Assembly: GCA_016292145.1 (NCBI GenBank) | Contig: JAEFBA010000002.1 | Coordinates: 1 to 64,000, forward strand | Origin: Saccharofermentans sp. | Lineage (GTDB): Bacteria > Bacillota > Clostridia > Saccharofermentanales > Saccharofermentanaceae | Reading direction: 5' to 3' | Length of the DNA: 64,000 nucleotides | Part shown: piece after piece, positions 4,567 through 15,065 of the stretch | How the letters are laid out: every line of letters starts with the position of its first letter | Position numbering within the stretch: the stretch's first letter is position 1 | Notes under the pieces: model-generated | The model's input: the letters and a program-made list of their open reading frames with translations, nothing else | Told to the model about the DNA's origin: nothing | Databases searched by the model: none | Position numbers and translations under genes: made by a program

Positions 4567-5787
4567 ATGATTTCTATCAACTTACCGAAGAATCTTACAT
4601 TCGGAATGAAACTCCTTTACGGAATTCTTGCGGTTTGCATTGTCGTGGCAATTGTTTGTGTGATCATCTTCAGCCGTAATACTTATCTGGCTAAGAGCAT
4701 GAAGCTCGTCAAGGCAGAGGGAACTGTTAAGATCGAACAGGAAGGCGGCAAACTCAGACAGCTCAAGAAAAATGCGAGATTCCAGTCAGGTGAAGCACTT
4801 GTTACCTATGCCGGAAGCCTTGCATCAGTAAGTCTTGATGACACCAAGATCATTACTCTGCAGGAAAACAGCAGAGCGGAATTCACGAAGATGAACAAGC
4901 AGATAGCACTTAAGCTTACCCAGGGCGCACTCTTCTTTAACGTGACCCAGAAGCTTAATGCTGACGAGATTTTCGAGATAAGGACATCCACGATTACAGC
5001 CGGCATCAAAGGCACTTCAGGCTATTTCTACGCTGACGAGAATGGCATGGATACTTTAACCGTAACTGACGGAAAGGTGCTTATCTCCGCAGTAAATCCT
5101 GAGACCGGAGAGAGAAAATATGCCGAGATAAACGGCGGCCAGAGGGTTGTCGTTAACCTTTATGCTGAATCTGACGACGAGCACGACACCATTGAGCTTG
5201 AGGTTACGGATCTTGTTGAAGACGATCTTGAAGACTTCATTCTTAAGAATCTCAGCGAGAATGAGCGTCTCCTTGACAGAGTCTGTGAATTTACTGGCTG
5301 GGACAGAGCGAAGCTCAGAGAACTGATAAACGCTTACATAGTATCTAATCTCAGTATTAGTGATACGACATCTTCTTCTGAAGAGTCTTCCGAACCGGAA
5401 ACCTCTTCTGAAGAAACTCAGACACAGGGTGCCGGTGAAGATTCACCCACACCTACGCCTAAGGCTAAAGATACCGATAAGCCTGAAGCTACGCCTACAC
5501 CTAAGCCGAAGGCAACAAATACTACAAAACCTAAGGCTACAGCTACAACTAAGCCTAAGGCAACAAATACTACAAAACCTAAGGCTACAAATACACCTGT
5601 GCCTACAGCAACTCAAGCGCCCACAAGCACACCTACAGAAGCGCCTGCAAGCACACCTACCAATACACCTGTGCCCACATCGACAGAAACGCCTGCAAAC
5701 ACGCCTACCAATACACCTGTACCGCCTGAGCCTTCTAAGACTCAACCGTCTGAATCAAATAATGGCGACGATAATGGTGATGGTTAA
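4567..5787 (+). CDS. FecR domain protein 1 (signal anchor, FecR domain, Pro/Thr/Lys-rich stalk)
   Basis: N-terminal TM; FQSGEALVTYAGSLASVSLDDTKIITLQENSRAEF..TAGIKGTSGYFY; low-complexity TPKPKATNTTKPKA repeats. Confidence 0.8.
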   Translation: MISINLPKNLTFGMKLLYGILAVCIVVAIVCVIIFSRNTYLAKSMKLVKAEGTVKIEQEGGKLRQLKKNARFQSGEALVTYAGSLASVSLDDTKIITLQENSRAEFTKMNKQIALKLTQGALFFNVTQKLNADEIFEIRTSTITAGIKGTSGYFYADENGMDTLTVTDGKVLISAVNPETGERKYAEINGGQRVVVNLYAESDDEHDTIELEVTDLVEDDLEDFILKNLSENERLLDRVCEFTGWDRAKLRELINAYIVSNLSISDTTSSSEESSEPETSSEETQTQGAGEDSPTPTPKAKDTDKPEATPTPKPKATNTTKPKATATTKPKATNTTKPKATNTPVPTATQAPTSTPTEAPASTPTNTPVPTSTETPANTPTNTPVPPEPSKTQPSESNNGDDNGDG

Positions 5788-5831
5788 AACACTGGTAATG
5801 GTTTAAGTCGTATATAGTTTTATTGCTTAAT

Positions 5832-5859
5832 AGGGCTGTCTCACACGAGGCAGCCTTTT
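5832..5859 (+). terminator. intrinsic terminator after FecR1
   Basis: AGGGCTGTCTC ACAC GAGGCAGCCTTTT. Confidence 0.6.
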
Positions 5860-6030
5860 ATGTCTGCGGTAATCAATTTCAAAAATAATAAAAACAGAAC
5901 CCTGGCTTTGTAGCAATATGCACAAAAAAGTCGCGCTAAATTTGGGTAGCGTGTTTTAGGCCTTTTCGATATTCTACTATGGTATGAATAATACCGCTCC
6001 AAAATAACCATTTCGGAAAGGCGGATTCAT

Positions 6031-7485
6031 ATGGGTTTAATAAATTCAATTAAATCCTTAACTCCCAGGGTCAAAGTCATATTATCTTGCGCTGCAGTTT
6101 TATTGATCGCTGCAATTGTATGCATTACTGTCTTTGCACGTAAGAGATATCTGGCTAATACCATGAGACTTCTCCGCTTTGAAGGAACAGTTAATATCGA
6201 AGACGGGAGAGGCACATCCAAGCCCGTTACGGGAAATATTCGTTTCCAATCAGGTGATTCATTAAATACCGGCGCAGACGGAATTGCGTCTGTCGGTCTT
6301 GATGATACAAAAATTGTTACACTCCAGAACGATAGTAGAGCTGAGTTCCAGAAATTAGGAAAGCGTCTGGAACTCAAGCTCACTAGGGGTGCAGTTTTCT
6401 TTAACGTTACAGAAAAACTCAAGGCAGATGAGACCTTTGAGATAAAGACCTCTACAATGACCGCCGGCATTCGCGGTACTTCAGGAATGATCTACTTCGA
6501 TACTGCCGACGGCGGTAGGGAATCCATAGTTGTAACTGACGGTGTAGTGGAGATCTCTGCTACTAACCCTGTTACAGGCGAGACAAAGACCGCAAGGGTT
6601 GAAGGCGGCAATAAGATTAAAGTATTCCTTTATAACGACAGAACAGAAGACAGCGTCCGGTTCGAAACGGATCCTGTCACAGAAGATAATCTCGATAACT
6701 TTGTCCTCAAGAATATTTCAGGTAATGATGAACTCTTGAACAGAGTAGCTGCATATACCGGCTGGGACAAAGAAAAACTTAAAAAAGCCATCAAGGATCT
6801 TGAAGATGAGAATATTCAGGGTCCGTCCGAGACACCTACACCGGTGCCGGCCGAGGAGACGACCGAGGAAGTGATTACTCCAATGCCGACACCGGTACCC
6901 TCTCAGACAATTACGCCGACTCCGTCACCGGAGCCGTCGCCCACACCACATTATACTCCTACGCCGCCTCCTACGCCGACGGCTGCACCTAAGCCTACGG
7001 CTACACCGGTACCGCCGACTCCTACTTCGAGGCCGACTCCTACTTCGAGACCGACTCCTACTTCGGGACCGACATCTACAAGTACGCCTACATCGACGCC
7101 TACAAGTACGCCTACTTCGAGGCCGACTGTTACTCCGTCGCCGACTGCTACAAGCACTCCTACCAGCACACCTTCGCCGACGCCTACTTTCAAGCCTTAC
7201 GGACCGGTATATGAAGGAACTCCTGAATATACAAAAGGATCTATGATGGAGATGCCGTCAGGCAATATTGATTATAGAGGCGTAGACCGTCAGGGACGCG
7301 AATGCTTATGCGGACTTAGAAAAACAACTGACAGAAGCGGAAACGAATGCTACAGGCAGTCTGATTATTGGCTGAATGATGGTCAAGGAAACTATACTAC
7401 TCAGATGGAATGTGATAACGGGTATTTCTATTACAAGGCTGATGAAGGCGCCCTTTACCGCATACCAAGCGACCAGGTACCCTAA
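6031..7485 (+). CDS. FecR domain protein 2 (signal anchor, FecR domain, PT-rich stalk, Cys-containing C-terminal domain)
   Basis: FQSGDSLNTGADGIASVGLDDTKIVTLQNDSRAEF..TAGIRGTSGMIYFD; PTPTSRPTPTSRPT stalk; terminal 90-aa non-repeat domain. Confidence 0.85.
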   Translation: MGLINSIKSLTPRVKVILSCAAVLLIAAIVCITVFARKRYLANTMRLLRFEGTVNIEDGRGTSKPVTGNIRFQSGDSLNTGADGIASVGLDDTKIVTLQNDSRAEFQKLGKRLELKLTRGAVFFNVTEKLKADETFEIKTSTMTAGIRGTSGMIYFDTADGGRESIVVTDGVVEISATNPVTGETKTARVEGGNKIKVFLYNDRTEDSVRFETDPVTEDNLDNFVLKNISGNDELLNRVAAYTGWDKEKLKKAIKDLEDENIQGPSETPTPVPAEETTEEVITPMPTPVPSQTITPTPSPEPSPTPHYTPTPPPTPTAAPKPTATPVPPTPTSRPTPTSRPTPTSGPTSTSTPTSTPTSTPTSRPTVTPSPTATSTPTSTPSPTPTFKPYGPVYEGTPEYTKGSMMEMPSGNIDYRGVDRQGRECLCGLRKTTDRSGNECYRQSDYWLNDGQGNYTTQMECDNGYFYYKADEGALYRIPSDQVP

Positions 7486-7497
7486 TGAAATCAACAG

Positions 7498-7527
7498 ACG
7501 GCTGATAGTGATGCTATTCAGCCGTTT
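7498..7527 (+). terminator. intrinsic terminator after FecR2
   Basis: ACGGCTGATAG TGAT GCTATTCAGCCGT TT. Confidence 0.5.
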
Positions 7528-7595
7528 GATATCTATCCGTCCGGATGCTTTTTTATCTATGATATAATTAGTTATGACCGCTTTGCGGGGAGGAC

Positions 7596-8927
7596 GTGCT
7601 TATGAGTATTGTTGATAAGTTTAAGAATCTCACACGCGAAAAGAAGATCATTGTGGCTGCTCTTGCAGCTGTCGTGGTAGCAGCCATAGTTATTGTCTGC
7701 GTTATCATCTCGAACAACAAATATCTGGCCAAGACCATGAGGCTCCTTCGTGTTGAAGGAACCGTAAATATCGAAGATTCCAGAGGCGGGTCCAAATCCG
7801 TAACCAACAATCTGCGTTTCCAGTCCGGAGATGCTTTGAATACAGGCGCTGACGGTCTTGCATCCGTTGGCCTTGATGACACGAAGATCGTTACACTCCA
7901 GAACGACAGCCGTGCCGAATTCCTTAAGAACGGCAAGAAACTGGAGCTTAAGCTCACTAAGGGCGCGTTGTTCTTCAATGTTACCGAGAAGCTTAAGGCT
8001 GATGAGACTTTTGAAATCAAGACTTCAACAATGACTGCCGGCATCCGCGGTACATCAGGCATCGTTTATTTCGACGAGACTGATGAGAACAGGGAATCCC
8101 TGATCGTAACAGACGGCGTTGTTGAAATATCCGCCACTAATAAGAAGACAGGTGTTACGAAGACCGCCAGGGTTGAAGCAGGGCAGAAGCTAAAGGTCTA
8201 TCTTTTCGATGACGAGACACCTGATAACAGCGTTCAGTTTGAACTGGACAAGGTCCCGCTTGATGAGCTCGGCAACTTTAATTTTGCAGGTCTTGCTGAT
8301 GACGATGCTCTTATGCAGAGGATCAGCGAGCATACAGGTTGGGACAAAGAAAAGCTCAAGAAGGTATTAAGAGGACTTAAGGCCGCTGCAGATCCGACAG
8401 CCACACCGGAGCCTACACCTACGGAGACGTCTGAGGATCCCACACCTACGGTATCACCTACACCGGTACCGACGGATTCACCTACTCCGAGTCCGGAGCC
8501 TACTGCTACACCTAAGCCTACGGCAAAGCCTAAGCCGAAGGCTACGAGCAAGCCTAACCCTACTCCTACTGTAGAGCCTACAACGGATCCTTCATCCGAT
8601 CCGTCTACAGATGACTCAACAGATCCTTCATCGAACCAGTCATCACAGTCTGATGGACCGTCTGTTCCTGAAGGATATGTGAAGGTTGTTTGGGGCGAAA
8701 CGTATAACAACAATAAGGTCTATATCGTAGGAATCAATAACGAAGAATTCATGGGCTGGATCAATGGTGACTGGGTAACCCTTGACCAGGCAGTCGAAGA
8801 AGGTGCATCTTCATTGACGACAATCTATTACACCGATGATGGAACTGTTTACTTCAAAATAGCAGAAGCATGGCCCGCAAATAACCCGCCTGTAAATGAC
8901 GGTGACGGTACAGGATATGTAGGCTAA
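7596..8927 (+). CDS. FecR domain protein 3 (signal anchor, FecR domain, PT-rich stalk, C-terminal domain)
   Basis: Core nearly identical to FecR2; TATPKPTAKPKPKATSK stalk; terminal VPEGYVKVVWGETYNNNKVYIVGINNEEF domain. Confidence 0.85.
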   Translation: MLMSIVDKFKNLTREKKIIVAALAAVVVAAIVIVCVIISNNKYLAKTMRLLRVEGTVNIEDSRGGSKSVTNNLRFQSGDALNTGADGLASVGLDDTKIVTLQNDSRAEFLKNGKKLELKLTKGALFFNVTEKLKADETFEIKTSTMTAGIRGTSGIVYFDETDENRESLIVTDGVVEISATNKKTGVTKTARVEAGQKLKVYLFDDETPDNSVQFELDKVPLDELGNFNFAGLADDDALMQRISEHTGWDKEKLKKVLRGLKAAADPTATPEPTPTETSEDPTPTVSPTPVPTDSPTPSPEPTATPKPTAKPKPKATSKPNPTPTVEPTTDPSSDPSTDDSTDPSSNQSSQSDGPSVPEGYVKVVWGETYNNNKVYIVGINNEEFMGWINGDWVTLDQAVEEGASSLTTIYYTDDGTVYFKIAEAWPANNPPVNDGDGTGYVG

Positions 8928-8939
8928 TAGCTGGATGTT

Positions 8940-10745
8940 ATGCATTTAAATGATCGTACCAGACATCTTATCTACGGCGTATTGCTGGCGACGGCAATAA
9001 CCTTGATATGCTTTGCTAAACTCACCAAGATCCCCGATCTGTGGCTTGATGATGCGCTTTATCAGCAGGACAGGGCAGTGCCCGGTGACATCATGATCAT
9101 CGGCATAGATGACAGGGACATTGATGAATTCGGACCTTACGGCAACTGGGACAGAACGGTCATGGCAAGAGCTTTGGAAGTCCTGGGATCAGATCCGAAG
9201 AAGGCTCCTGCCGTTGTTGCGATCGATATCCAGTATTCAAGTCACGTAAATGAAGAAGGCGACTTAAGGCTTGCGAAGGCTGCAGAGAAACTCGGCAATG
9301 TCGTTACCGCGACTACTGCTGCCTATGGCTCGAAAACGACATTCGGCAGCGGATCATCAGCTGTGATCGATTACTTTACCGTTCTGTCTTATGAAGAGCC
9401 CTATGAAGAACTTAAAGCTGTAACTACGCAGGGCAGCATCAACACGATGTACGATGATGACGGCGTCTTAAGACATGCGCTCCTTTATGTTAAGCCTGAT
9501 GACAGAAAAGTGTATTCGATGCAGTATCAGGCAGCAAAGCTCTATGCCGAGAGCAAGGGCTTTACGATAGAAGAGCCTCCGACGGATGCAAGGGGACATT
9601 ATTATGTTTCCTATTCTGCGAAGCCCGGCGGATTTTACGACGGCTTCTCATTAAGTGATCTTATCAACGGAAGAATAGATCCGGGTTACTATGCCGGCAA
9701 GCTCGTGCTGATCGGACCTTACACGCCGGGACTTCAGGATTCGTTTGTTACGCCTATCGAGAAATCCAATATGATGTTCGGCGTCGAGTATCAGGCCAAT
9801 GTTATCCAGATGATCTTAGACGGCGACTATAAGACCGAAGTATCTGACTATATTCAGCTCGGTGTTTTGTGGATCGTCTGCCTTGCTTATTTTGTATTCC
9901 TCAATGCAAAGAAGCTGCGTTATACGATACCGGCGTTCTTTATCGGTGTTCTCCTGTCTTTGGGAATCAGTCTGGGACTTAGTTCGCTTGGATATCTGAC
10001 ACATGCTTTCTGGATACCTTTCGGACTGTTCGTATTATTCTTGTTCAGCATCGGTGGCCATTACATCCGTGCAGCTTTGGAAAGACAGAACGTAACCAAG
10101 ACATTCGAGCGTTATGTTGCACCTAATGTCGTAAACGAGATCTTAAAGGAAGGCACGGACAGCTTAAAGCTCGGCGGCAAGACGGTTGATATCGCGGTTC
10201 TTTTCGTAGACATCAGAGGCTTTACGACAATGTCTGAGAGATTATCTCCTGAAGAAGTAGTATTCATCTTAAACCAGTATCTTTCCATGACGAGCGCCTG
10301 CGTCGACAGATATCAGGGCACATTGGACAAGTTCATAGGCGATGCCACTATGGCATTCTGGGGCGCGCCGATCGCTGATGATGAGGCTGTCTATCATGCG
10401 TGCATGGCAGCGCTTGATATCGTTAAGGGCGCAGATGAACTGTCTGCAAAGCTCAAGGCTGAGATCAATGAGGAGATCCACGTCGGTGTCGGCGTCAACT
10501 TCGGACCTGCAGTCGTCGGCAACATGGGTTCCGAAAGACGTATGGACTATACGGCAATAGGCGATACCGTAAATACTTCTGCAAGACTTGAAGCAAATGC
10601 ACCGGGCGGCATGGTATATGTAAGCCGTTCGGTAATCGATAAATTGAATGGCCGTATGAAGTACGAGCCTTTGGAAAAGCCAATCAAACTGAAAGGTAAG
10701 GCGGACGGATTTGAGATCCTGCGTCTTATCGGACCGGAGGAATAG
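8940..10745 (+). CDS. CHASE2 sensor domain + class III adenylate/guanylate cyclase
   Basis: N-terminal CHASE2-like extracellular domain (IMIIGIDDRDIDEFGPYGNWDR), three TMs, catalytic VLFVDIRGFTTMSERL...DKFIGDATMAFWGAP...MDYTAIGDTVNTSARLE. Confidence 0.9.
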   Translation: MHLNDRTRHLIYGVLLATAITLICFAKLTKIPDLWLDDALYQQDRAVPGDIMIIGIDDRDIDEFGPYGNWDRTVMARALEVLGSDPKKAPAVVAIDIQYSSHVNEEGDLRLAKAAEKLGNVVTATTAAYGSKTTFGSGSSAVIDYFTVLSYEEPYEELKAVTTQGSINTMYDDDGVLRHALLYVKPDDRKVYSMQYQAAKLYAESKGFTIEEPPTDARGHYYVSYSAKPGGFYDGFSLSDLINGRIDPGYYAGKLVLIGPYTPGLQDSFVTPIEKSNMMFGVEYQANVIQMILDGDYKTEVSDYIQLGVLWIVCLAYFVFLNAKKLRYTIPAFFIGVLLSLGISLGLSSLGYLTHAFWIPFGLFVLFLFSIGGHYIRAALERQNVTKTFERYVAPNVVNEILKEGTDSLKLGGKTVDIAVLFVDIRGFTTMSERLSPEEVVFILNQYLSMTSACVDRYQGTLDKFIGDATMAFWGAPIADDEAVYHACMAALDIVKGADELSAKLKAEINEEIHVGVGVNFGPAVVGNMGSERRMDYTAIGDTVNTSARLEANAPGGMVYVSRSVIDKLNGRMKYEPLEKPIKLKGKADGFEILRLIGPEE

Positions 10746-10747
10746 AG

Positions 10748-12460
10748 ATGCTTACTTTTTTGGGAAGAGGATCTGCATTTGCAGATGAGCATAACAGTGC
10801 CTTTTTCATCGACAACGGTAATCTGATCCTTATCGATTGTCCGATGAGTTCTTTTGAGAAGTTAAACGACATGAACCTGACGTTGTTCGACCACATCTAT
10901 CTGCTGGTCACACATACGCACGGGGATCATATAAGCGGTATCGGGATGCTCGTTGATCTTCTCCAGTTCTCGGTAAAGACGCCGATCACGATCGTCGCAC
11001 CTTCCAAGGAAGTCGAAGGCGATCTCTTCTATTTCCTCTCAAGGCTCGAAGGCTGCAATGATTCATGGTACGAACTTATCAATTCGGAAGAGCTTGATGC
11101 GGACTGGTTCGTTTGCCCGATCCAGACATCACACACCGAAGAGCTCTCAGGCAAGTGCTTCGGTTACTGTCTTACAGTTGACGGCAACAGAGTAGTTTAT
11201 ACAGGCGATTCGAATACGCTCGTTCCTTATGAGAAATATATTTCGGACGGTGCTTATCTGTATACGGAAGTGTCTGCGTACAAGTCACCCGTTCATCTTT
11301 ACTGCGTTGATATTCACGATAAGATCAAGTCGTATGTCGAGCGCGGAGTTCACGTCTACCTCATGCACATGGATGATGAGAAGAGAATAGGTGAAGTCTT
11401 AAGCGATACCGGTGCCGAGTTCGCGCCTCTTGAAAAGAGGGCGTTCATGGTTCAGGACACGTCGAGACTTTTAGACGGTATCTTTACGATCTCCGACAGC
11501 CTCTATAAGGATATGTGCATGAACAACAACAAGGATCACCAGCTGTTGTTCTCATATCTTACAGATCTCGGCAAGACGATCGTTGATGCCGACAGGGCAA
11601 GCTTCTGGAAGTGGGATAAGAGAAAGAACCAGATCTGGACTATGTCGGCAACCGGCGTGGAAAAGATCGTGATCCCTGATGATTCCGGTCTTGTCGGAAA
11701 GGCCTTAAGAGAAAAGACGACGGTCATCACAAACGATCCTTATAACGATCCTGATTTCAATAATGAGGTCGATATCCAGACAGGCTATAAGACGAATTCC
11801 GTTCTCGTTATGCCTGTAGCCGATGTTAACGGAGATTTCATCGGCGCTCTTCAGCTCATCAACAAAAATGACGAGAATGGTTTTGACGAAGATGAGGATC
11901 CGAAAAGACTCTCTCTCGCAGCTCTCGTATGCGGCATCGCATTAGAGTCAGAAACGTTCCTGGAAGACTCCCATCATGACAGGCTGACTGGCCTTAAGAA
12001 CAGAATGGGTTTCTACTATGATTTCGGTAAGCGTTTCAGGGAATATCTCATTCCTGAATCCGGAAAGATCATGTCCGTATTTATCTGCGATATCGATAAG
12101 TTCAAGCGCGTTAACGATACGTATGGTCACAATGCAGGTGATGATGTGCTGAAATTCACATCACAGATGCTCGAATCTTTCTGCAGCGAGAAGGACAGCG
12201 TATACAGATGGGGCGGTGAAGAGTTCGTTATGGTCATGCGTGATACTGATCTTGACGGTGTCGTAAAAAAGGCCGAAGAGATAAGGCTCAAGCTCCAGGG
12301 CTCAGAGATCATCGCTGACGGCAATAAGCTTAACTGCACGATGAGCTTCGGATGCAGTCTTTTCGAGCCTTCCAAGTCCATTGAAGAGAACATAAGCAAT
12401 GCCGACGAGAGGCTCTATACAGCCAAAGAAACAGGAAGAAACAAAGTCTGTTGGGAATGA
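10748..12460 (+). CDS. metallo-beta-lactamase fold - GAF - GGDEF (diguanylate cyclase) fusion
   Basis: MBL motif THTHGDHISG and YTGDSN; GAF with LQLINKNDENGFDEDED; RWGGEEFVMVM. Starts 2 nt after the cyclase stop. Confidence 0.9.
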   Translation: MLTFLGRGSAFADEHNSAFFIDNGNLILIDCPMSSFEKLNDMNLTLFDHIYLLVTHTHGDHISGIGMLVDLLQFSVKTPITIVAPSKEVEGDLFYFLSRLEGCNDSWYELINSEELDADWFVCPIQTSHTEELSGKCFGYCLTVDGNRVVYTGDSNTLVPYEKYISDGAYLYTEVSAYKSPVHLYCVDIHDKIKSYVERGVHVYLMHMDDEKRIGEVLSDTGAEFAPLEKRAFMVQDTSRLLDGIFTISDSLYKDMCMNNNKDHQLLFSYLTDLGKTIVDADRASFWKWDKRKNQIWTMSATGVEKIVIPDDSGLVGKALREKTTVITNDPYNDPDFNNEVDIQTGYKTNSVLVMPVADVNGDFIGALQLINKNDENGFDEDEDPKRLSLAALVCGIALESETFLEDSHHDRLTGLKNRMGFYYDFGKRFREYLIPESGKIMSVFICDIDKFKRVNDTYGHNAGDDVLKFTSQMLESFCSEKDSVYRWGGEEFVMVMRDTDLDGVVKKAEEIRLKLQGSEIIADGNKLNCTMSFGCSLFEPSKSIEENISNADERLYTAKETGRNKVCWE

Positions 12461-12508
12461 TTATTGTCAAACGATTTTTATTACTGTATTATTTAAACAT
12501 TAACGAGA

Positions 12509-12535
12509 ACCTGTGCCTAAAAGCGCAGGTTTTTT
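12509..12535 (+). terminator. intrinsic terminator
   Basis: AACCTGTGC CTAAAA GCGCAGGTT TTTT. Confidence 0.75.
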
Positions 12536-12571
12536 CGGAAAAAATAAGGGTAGATCTATAAGGAGGCAAGT

Positions 12572-13315
12572 ATGGATACTTGTAAAGTGTGCGGAACCAT
12601 TCTTCCGTTCAGTGGTATGAAATGTCCCAAGTGCGGATATTCAAAAGACGGTGCAGGTGCACCTGCAGGCGCGGGAGCAGGTCCTGCAAAGATGTTTAAT
12701 TCGGATAAGCATATCTTGATCATGAATCTTACCAAGTTCAGAGATCTTCTGGGTGAGAATGAGGAACTCAAGGGCATGATCAAGCCGCAGAGCGAATTTC
12801 CTATGAGTGACGATCAGATCTATAAGAAGAGATCGCTCTTTAAATTCTTCTGGCCGTTCTTGCTCGGAGGAATCGGTGCCGGTATCGTTATTTATATAAT
12901 CTCGATGATCATTATGTTCTCCTCGGCTATGAGCATAGCCACGCAGCCCTCAGTATCAGATCAGCAGGTTCAGACATTTGCTAATCATGCTATGGCTGAT
13001 ATTTACGGCGGATATATCGTTGCCATAGCTGTTGCACTTGCGATCATCTTCATGGGATTATTTATCTCCAGAAGGAAGAGAGACGCCTTCAACAGCAATG
13101 CAGACATGATGAACCGCATTGCATCCGAGAGATATCAGATGGGCCTTAAGAACGAGAGAATGATCGATATCTATCAGGATAATCTCGCAAGCATGCGCAG
13201 GTATGAAGATCTTGTTCCTGCAGAGTACCAGACAAGCCAGAAGGTATCCCTGATCATCGAAGCTTTGAAGGAAGATCATGCTGATACGGTGGAAGAAGCT
13301 ATAGCACTTCTCTGA
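12572..13315 (+). CDS. zinc-ribbon membrane protein
   Basis: CKVCGTILPFSGMKCPKCGYSKDG; two TM segments. Confidence 0.7.
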   Translation: MDTCKVCGTILPFSGMKCPKCGYSKDGAGAPAGAGAGPAKMFNSDKHILIMNLTKFRDLLGENEELKGMIKPQSEFPMSDDQIYKKRSLFKFFWPFLLGGIGAGIVIYIISMIIMFSSAMSIATQPSVSDQQVQTFANHAMADIYGGYIVAIAVALAIIFMGLFISRRKRDAFNSNADMMNRIASERYQMGLKNERMIDIYQDNLASMRRYEDLVPAEYQTSQKVSLIIEALKEDHADTVEEAIALL

Positions 13316-13656: not shown

Positions 13657-13741
13657 CGGAGTTGGAACAAAGGAACGAAGATCGATAGATCAGACCTCCG
13701 CTCTAATGCTCGGATAACAACATTCAAAGGAGATGATTATT

Positions 13742-14191
13742 ATGTTGATGTCCGGATTATTTGGAGAAGATTTGTTTGACGACTTTTGGGGATTCCCTAC
13801 ACACGAATTGGCTAACATCGATAAGCACCTGTACGGCAAGAATGCGCGCAACATGATGGCAACTGATGTTAACGAGACTGAGACCGATTACGAGCTCGAG
13901 ATGAACCTTCCGGGTTTCAAGAAAGACCAGATCAACGTTAAGCTCGAAGACGGCTACATGACCATCAGTGCATCCAAGGGCCATGATCAGGAGAAGAAGG
14001 ATAAGCACGGCAAGATCATCCGCCAGGAGCGTTATGCCGGTTCCTTACAGAGGAGCTTTTATGTCGGTGATGCCGTAAAGGTTGAAGATGTTAAGGCCAA
14101 GTACGAAGACGGTGTCTTAAAGCTCTTTATCCCGAAGAAAGAACTTAAGGCTCTGCCCGGCAACAACAACACCATAGCCATTGAGGGCTAA
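13742..14191 (+). CDS. Hsp20/alpha-crystallin family small heat shock protein
   Basis: ELEMNLPGFKKDQINVKLEDGYMTISA...GSLQRSFYVGDAV...YEDGVLKLFIPK. Confidence 0.93.
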   Translation: MLMSGLFGEDLFDDFWGFPTHELANIDKHLYGKNARNMMATDVNETETDYELEMNLPGFKKDQINVKLEDGYMTISASKGHDQEKKDKHGKIIRQERYAGSLQRSFYVGDAVKVEDVKAKYEDGVLKLFIPKKELKALPGNNNTIAIEG

Positions 14192-14336: not shown

Positions 14337-15065
14337 ATGAAGAACATTACAGCAAAGCTCTTAACCCTTGGCGTTACAGCAGTACTTATTACCGGTTGTT
14401 TTACAGGATGTAAGGTTATAAACAACAGCAAGATAAATGCTAACGTTAAGGTTAACGGTGAAGAAGTTATCAATACTGAGATAGCTTTAGGCACAGGCTC
14501 ATGGGAGGTTGCCGCATCAAATGCTATGACAGATGAACTTAAGAAATATTTCGAAGACGCGATAAGCAAGCTCGACGGATACAACCATACACCTGCAGCA
14601 CTTCTTGCTAAGCAGGTAGTAGCAGGAACGAATTACTGTTTCCTTTGCACGTCTACCATCCAGGCAAACAGCGCAGCAAAAGAAATGAAACTTGCATATA
14701 TCAACGTTGATCCTTCCGGCAACGCAACATTCTTGAAGGATGAAGTCCTCATGCTTCCTGGTGTCAGCGAGAGCGGCGACAAGGTCGGCGGCTGGTCATA
14801 TGCTGAATCAGTCGAGATCACGGACGACATAAAGAAGGTCATGGAGAAGGCAACTGAGACTTTAACAGGCGCAACATATGAACCCGTAGCTTATATCGGT
14901 TCACAGGTCGTCGCAGGAACAAATCATGCTATTCTTTGCAAGAGCACTCCTTCTGTAGCTGAGTTAAACGGCGCGACAACATACGTCCTCGTATACGTCT
15001 ACGCTGACCTCCAGGGCAACTGTGAGATCACAGAGACGAAGGACATTGAAATAAAAGCAGGTTAA
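14337..15065 (+). CDS. lipoprotein with two tandem cystatin-like repeats
   Basis: Lipobox-like LITGC; two homologous halves each with QVVAGTN (QVVAGTNYCFLC, QVVAGTNHAILC). Confidence 0.6.
   Translation: MKNITAKLLTLGVTAVLITGCFTGCKVINNSKINANVKVNGEEVINTEIALGTGSWEVAASNAMTDELKKYFEDAISKLDGYNHTPAALLAKQVVAGTNYCFLCTSTIQANSAAKEMKLAYINVDPSGNATFLKDEVLMLPGVSESGDKVGGWSYAESVEITDDIKKVMEKATETLTGATYEPVAYIGSQVVAGTNHAILCKSTPSVAELNGATTYVLVYVYADLQGNCEITETKDIEIKAG

Follow-up and report, generated by a model that had tools for sequence, protein, structure and literature searches.

How could a bacterium of the class Clostridia pass a cue from outside the cell on to its internal messengers? The question is raised by a locus in the first 64,000 nucleotides of the Saccharofermentans sp. 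contig JAEFBA010000002.1 (assembly GCA_016292145.1), a stretch that we call the window. Five genes on its forward strand encode three FecR-domain proteins, FecR1 (4567..5787), FecR2 (6031..7485) and FecR3 (7602..8927), a CHASE2-class III adenylate cyclase (8940..10745), and a fusion of metallo-β-lactamase (MBL), GAF and GGDEF domains termed MGG (10748..12460). An earlier note on this DNA had proposed that the FecR proteins sense a cue, that the cyclase makes a cyclic nucleotide and that MGG turns this signal into cyclic di-GMP (c-di-GMP). Our comparison shows that the conserved core is the cyclase together with GAF-GGDEF, and not the FecR triplet. Since a sensor predicted to make cyclic AMP (cAMP) lies next to the gene for a GAF-GGDEF protein, the cluster probably converts one messenger into another. 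We consider it likely that the operon is a transmembrane signal converter, in which a cue at FecR and CHASE2 would lead to cAMP, cAMP would be read by GAF, and GAF would control c-di-GMP formation.

All five open reading frames (ORFs) are intact, and their coordinates and domains were correctly given in the earlier note, with which Pfam agrees. In the cyclase, CHASE2 (residues 19-317; E 2e-38) is followed by transmembrane helices and the catalytic domain (residues 417-588; Guanylate_cyc E 5e-24), and both PF05226 and PF00211 score over the cut-off. MGG (570 amino acids) consists of MBL (10748..11440, residues 1-231; Lactamase_B_2 E 1e-8), GAF (11453..11953, about residues 236-402; GAF_2 E 5e-7) and GGDEF (11954..12457; E 6e-38), whose GGEEF active site is at residues 489-493. 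The full-length AlphaFold2 (AF2) model of MGG has a mean pLDDT of 85.5. FecR3 ends 12 nt before the cyclase gene, and the cyclase gene ends 2 nt before MGG.

The source is a metagenome-assembled genome (MAG), and the named relatives nearest to it are MAGs of Saccharofermentans and Ruminococcaceae, for the most part from the rumen or other gut samples. Among 115 genomes of the same family, two genera have full-length MGG in the majority of their genomes, with identities of 55-92%. An order-wide search of 188 genomes gave an MGG match at E 1e-35 in two of 30 genera. The family contains 79 GAF-GGDEF loci. MBL is fused in 75 of them, and in the other four (genomes G064, G074, G094 and G100) MBL and GAF-GGDEF are separate adjacent genes in the same order. 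A CHASE2-cyclase lies upstream on the same strand in 69 of the 79 loci, with a gap of 30 nt or less in 61, many of the genes overlapping. Outside the family, 25 loci were found in MAGs labelled Lachnospiraceae, Eubacterium or Ruminococcus. MBL and GAF-GGDEF are fused in 11 of these and separate in 11, the separate genes keeping the same order in Lachnospiraceae and Eubacterium MAGs, and a cyclase is located upstream in 12. The gene order of cyclase, then MBL and GAF-GGDEF, for which the earlier note had suggested a neighbourhood search, is conserved in relatives. Lachnospiraceae bacterium AC2031 (L151) is an example with separate genes, and Ruminococcaceae bacterium YAD3003 (L128) one with the fusion. 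A chance neighbourhood was rejected, because order and spacing are kept across orthologues of 52-99% identity.

Some individual loci depart from this arrangement. At L319, which belongs to a different family within the class, a CHASE2-cyclase is divergent from a GAF-GGDEF gene, and no MBL was found within the stretch examined around the pair. Two MGG orthologues, L101 (genome G040) and L109 (G100), are each broken by one in-frame stop (TAG and TGA, respectively); the TGA is close to the junction of MBL and GAF, a place at which the two are also split naturally. At L159, a remnant of the cyclase C-terminus (6167-6604, reverse strand) is located beside an MBL-GAF-GGDEF gene and is joined to foreign-looking sequence that resembles the end of a group II intron.

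We then asked whether the two enzymes are also inherited together. With presence of the CHASE2-cyclase defined at E 1e-40, its co-occurrence with MGG among the 115 family genomes was 82/3/2/28 (Fisher 4e-21), a table that counts G090 as a carrier although this genome possesses MBL only, with neither GAF-GGDEF nor a class III cyclase. All 84 GAF-GGDEF carriers possess a class III cyclase. In 82 of them there is one of the CHASE2 type, in most cases next to the GAF-GGDEF module; the remaining two (G027 and G078) lack a CHASE2-cyclase, yet other class III cyclases are present. Conversely, no CHASE2-cyclase was found in 29 of the 31 non-carriers, and when ten further non-carriers were searched with PF00211, the domain was detected in one only (G049). 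A second CHASE2-cyclase elsewhere in the genome, about 40% identical to the operon cyclase, was found in seven of the ten MGG carriers without an operon cyclase (MBL-only G090 being among the ten) versus seven of the 75 others (p 6.5e-5). In an rpoB phylogeny of 80 genomes, about 10 changes were counted for MGG and about 10 for the cyclase; of seven independent pairs with good support, six show the cyclase changing in the same direction as MGG, and none in the opposite direction. The cyclase and GAF-GGDEF are gained and lost together on this tree.

The cyclase is predicted to make cAMP. The metal-binding aspartates D424 and D468, the transition-state residues N545 and R549, and the ATP-selecting Lys/Asp pair K464 and D536 are invariant in 94 CHASE2 cyclases. 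We infer an intact ATP-type enzyme, a predicted cAMP producer. In the GGDEF domain, D448, N456, D457 and D465 are invariant, and the GGEEF motif is present in nearly all of 106 sequences. The inhibitory RxxD motif is not conserved (positions 480 and 483 are not R and D), and the missing inhibitory site suggests that there would be little product inhibition. Against the concern, raised in the earlier note, that either enzyme might be inert, the catalytic residues of both are kept and both are predicted to be intact.

The link between the two enzymes would be the GAF domain. Its nearest sequences in the PDB are 4mcw, CyaB2 (1ykd), PDE10A and PDE5A. In CyaB2 GAFb, cAMP is contacted by R291, T293, D356 and N359, and I308 lies against the ring (PMC4411481). 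These five residues align to R283, S285, D342, T345 and S300 of MGG, respectively. R283, S285 and D342 are found in all of 104 GAF sequences, and position 345 holds Thr in 100 of them and Ser in the other four; Thr at the position of N359 also occurs in PDE5 and PDE10. The residues of the NKFDE motif, N372, K373, F379 and D384, are fixed or nearly so in the same 104 sequences. Judged from family membership and contact positions, the domain belongs to the cyclic-nucleotide-binding GAF family and is a predicted cAMP receptor. The GAF domains of CyaB2 and of PDE2, 5 and 10 are like that of MGG in family and in the purine-contact positions. However, they regulate a cyclase or phosphodiesterase and mostly occur in tandem, whereas MGG possesses a single GAF before a GGDEF.

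A direct join of GAF to a catalytically complete GGDEF, as in MGG, is the architecture of the Lcd1 type. In Lcd1 of Leptospira interrogans, cAMP on the GAF domain activates the GGDEF (J Mol Biol 2017, cited in PMC8846402, PMC6717892 and PMC5932348), and Tlr0485 is a further precedent (PMC8846402). The predicted logic is the same, GAF-read cAMP controlling the attached GGDEF, a likeness drawn without direct sequence comparison; the dependence on cAMP has been measured in Lcd1, whereas in MGG it is predicted. MGG differs in that it is found in Clostridia, shares an operon with a CHASE2 cyclase of its own and with FecR, and is joined to an MBL hydrolase.

Combining these elements, an outside cue would be registered jointly by a surface protein with a FecR domain and by CHASE2 as the extracytoplasmic domain of the cyclase, and the cyclase would form cAMP from ATP. 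The cAMP would bind to GAF in the product of the neighbouring gene, and by analogy with Lcd1, the bound GAF would alter the activity of the attached GGDEF and hence the c-di-GMP level. The sensor-to-c-di-GMP proposal of the earlier note is favoured by the conserved neighbourhood, the intact ATP-type cyclase, the cyclic-nucleotide-type GAF, the intact GGDEF and the co-occurrence, and none of the three outcomes named there as refuting it emerged from the sequences. The part of that proposal given to a set of three FecR proteins did not stand, as their number is variable and FecR1 and FecR2 are probably transcribed separately.

Several observations weigh against this converter. A same-strand upstream cyclase is missing from about ten loci of the family and from a dozen outside it. 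In the GAF domain, S300, at the position of CyaB2 I308, is variable (mostly Ser, Ala or Thr), and the NKFDE motif ends in E383-D384, that is, E-D instead of D-E. The sign test on the rpoB tree reaches only p of about 0.03, and the sampled genomes are mostly MAGs. Furthermore, no PilZ protein was found in 30 genomes of the genus, despite many GGDEF-type candidates there. A search for the c-di-GMP-I riboswitch speaks neither for nor against the converter, as it gave no signal in any control genome.

Some of these observations would also fit two parallel outputs, cAMP on one branch and c-di-GMP on another, independent one, with the two merely co-expressed and the GAF binding another ligand or being structural. 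The dozen outside loci where MBL and GAF-GGDEF have no visible cyclase neighbour are in agreement with this, as is the origin of the nearest PDB GAF, 4mcw, from an HD-GYP protein. However, the purine-contact positions of the GAF are conserved, and the association of all family carriers with a class III cyclase extends to the two without a CHASE2-cyclase; the genomes of loci L152 and L156 lack CHASE2 but do encode a class III cyclase of another kind. We regard parallel outputs as unlikely.

For the converter, the role of the MBL domain has to be considered next. Its metal ligands H56, H58, D60, H61, H129, D154 and H207 are invariant in 125 sequences, with one gap at H207. The AF2 model of the domain has a pLDDT of 96.5. 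The nearest folds are MBLBt2, Apyc1, YhfI and RNase Z, and Foldseek gave 7fct (3e-17), Apyc1 7u2s (3e-13) and YhfI 6kns (2e-10). By its predicted structure and ligands, this domain is an intact hydrolase of the RNase Z/Apyc1/YhfI-like kind, an accessory that is fused or encoded by a separate gene. Apyc1 and YhfI cleave cyclic mononucleotides, YhfI preferring cAMP and cGMP (PMC9117128). The fold, the HxHxDH motif and the remaining metal ligands are common to these enzymes and the MGG MBL, whereas identity is about 20%. Assignment of the domain to Apyc1 itself was rejected, because the catalytic E74 of the SBSphiJ Apyc1 aligns to G66, a position that is mostly Gly, Ala or Pro in the family, and the PF23023 score is 26 bits against a cut-off of 50.

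The leading candidate role of this hydrolase is that of a cAMP phosphodiesterase that would reset the switch. MGG would then both receive and erase the signal, a bifunctional extension of the converter that is compatible with it and that we propose tentatively. The position of MBL directly after the cyclase, the invariant metal ligands and the fold next to enzymes that cleave cyclic mononucleotides are consistent with it, and the FecR-CHASE2-cyclase clusters of Campylobacterota include a cAMP phosphodiesterase gene (PMC9239204). The lack of E74 and the low PF23023 score speak against it, as does L319, where cyclase and GAF-GGDEF occur with no nearby MBL. In addition, ten genomes (eight of Ruminococcus, G090 and G238) possess the MBL without any class III cyclase. 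Therefore, the MBL substrate in these genomes is not cAMP from such a cyclase. The full form of this idea, one protein as a converter with its own reset, in which GAF reads cAMP, GGDEF makes c-di-GMP and MBL destroys cAMP, is doubtful. As a separate observation, Ruminococcus flavefaciens has this MBL in a fusion with a UPF0227 hydrolase domain (L171:6479-7696), near a gene for a KptA-like RNA 2′-phosphotransferase, in a genome without a class III cyclase.

The sensory side of the operon begins with the FecR proteins. All three have a single membrane helix at the N-terminus, then a FecR domain (E 3e-11 to 1e-12) and a Pro/Thr-rich tail. In FecR1, a short N-terminal segment precedes the helix, the FecR domain spans residues 78-171, and the tail is 71% Pro, Thr, Ser, Lys and Glu over 144 residues. 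FecR2 has its own C-terminal domain after the stalk, and FecR3, which leads the tight unit and starts with the ATG at 7602 (a GTG is in frame at 7596), ends in a short C-terminal domain. The FecR regions of FecR2 and FecR3 are 69% identical, and that of FecR1 is 51-52% identical to either. Among the 69 relatives with a cyclase upstream of MGG, some of whose loci are cut by contig ends, one FecR was counted in 33, two in 15, three in 13, four in one and none in view in seven. The FecR gene ends 60 nt or less before the cyclase in 56 of the 62 relatives having FecR. The triplet, regarded as unusual in the earlier note, was rejected as the key feature; the copy number is a lineage feature that varies from 0 to 4 and is most often one.

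The hairpins on the forward strand divide the cassette further. The hairpin 3′ of FecR1 (5832..5857) has an 11-bp stem, a T-rich tail and a fold z of -3.8, and of the three hairpins it alone was called by the terminator consensus scan. A stable hairpin 3′ of FecR2 (7495..7528; fold z = -4.7) has no clear U-tract and is a possible terminator. The terminator-like hairpin 3′ of MGG (12504..12537; fold z = -4.9) was not called because only four T remain after the stem. The placement of these hairpins suggests that FecR3, the cyclase and MGG probably form a single transcript, and that FecR1 and FecR2 are probably each on their own transcript. Of the single cassette with three FecR genes, the tight unit from FecR3 to MGG holds, whereas the membership of FecR1 and FecR2 does not, since a hairpin follows each.

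FecR domains raise the alternative of a classical anti-sigma system of the FecI/FecR/FecA type that lies beside the cyclase operon by chance. Beyond the domain itself, weak matches to Leptospira FecR-type proteins agree with this. However, the cytoplasmic N-terminus is short, the FecR-cyclase adjacency is conserved, and FecR-CHASE2 pairing with other outputs is published (PMC5192318, PMC9239204). As noted earlier, neither a sigma-factor nor a TonB-receptor gene is visible among the ORFs around the cassette, although the whole genome was not searched. We consider an anti-sigma role highly improbable. In several outside-family loci, FecR lies further upstream and a gene for a protein of 1000-1200 amino acids with a signal-like N-terminus is located between FecR and the CHASE2-cyclase (L151:1555-5166, L194:1908-4946). 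These loci are of the Lachnospiraceae type, the L151 copy has a Glucodextran_B match, and the protein is possibly a surface part of the sensor.

Downstream of MGG, the window encodes a zinc-ribbon membrane protein (12572-13315), Hsp20 (13733-14191) and an uncharacterised protein whose N-terminus resembles that of a lipoprotein (14337-15065). In close relatives these genes also come after MGG, but in distant ones they mostly do not.

Proteins of about 310 amino acids with two cyclic-nucleotide-binding domains and no recognised output domain are encoded elsewhere in the source genome (G000:C52:2226-3125 and G000:C127:8530-9429) and in relatives (for instance, L039:3698-4624 and L064:6406-7311). 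Of the 115 family genomes, 75 encode them, and nearly all of these 75 have the cyclase as well; the co-occurrence table (73/12/2/28) has the same pattern as that of cyclase and MGG. The gene adjoins the operon in G091, G069, G037, G061, G016 and G081, and the second cyclase in G026.

Each link of the proposed chain has a precedent. The sensor half is already known, because FecR-CHASE2 has been published for Campylobacterota (PMC9239204) and Burkholderia (PMC5192318), in line with the expectation in the earlier note that FecR/CHASE2-cyclase neighbourhoods occur elsewhere. In Campylobacterota, the FecR gene is next to a CHASE2 adenylate cyclase, as here, with the cAMP phosphodiesterase gene in the cluster (mBio 2022, PMC9239204). 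Those clusters have a tetratricopeptide repeat (TPR) protein and are not described with GAF-GGDEF or MBL-GGDEF (PMC9239204). In the window, no TPR protein was found among ten genes scanned with Pfam, and the MBL is a candidate phosphodiesterase only. The present operon has a diguanylate cyclase for its output, and FecR is carried on its own transmembrane helix and is not described as an outer-membrane protein. The BiofilmReg operon of Burkholderia likewise pairs a FecR/LysM protein with a CHASE2 sensor, but this is a histidine kinase with a response regulator as output, where the present locus has a diguanylate cyclase (PMC5192318). In the openly licensed literature, we found neither the joining of source, receiver and output in one operon nor its spread in rumen Clostridia; the MBL-GAF-GGDEF architecture, the co-inheritance statistics and any paper that brings MBL together with GGDEF, GAF and cyclase were likewise not found there, and a search on the structure 7fct yielded nothing of use.

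The finding means that, in a large group of rumen Clostridia, a messenger source, its predicted receiver and an output enzyme are tied to one another at the genetic level. In Gram-positive gut bacteria, the operon would be a natural circuit for crosstalk between messengers. If MGG should be a converter with its own reset, an outside cue would be passed between messengers as a timed pulse within one operon. cAMP signalling, little described in Clostridia, may be an organised system there, in which the tandem cyclic-nucleotide-binding proteins are likely further cAMP receivers.

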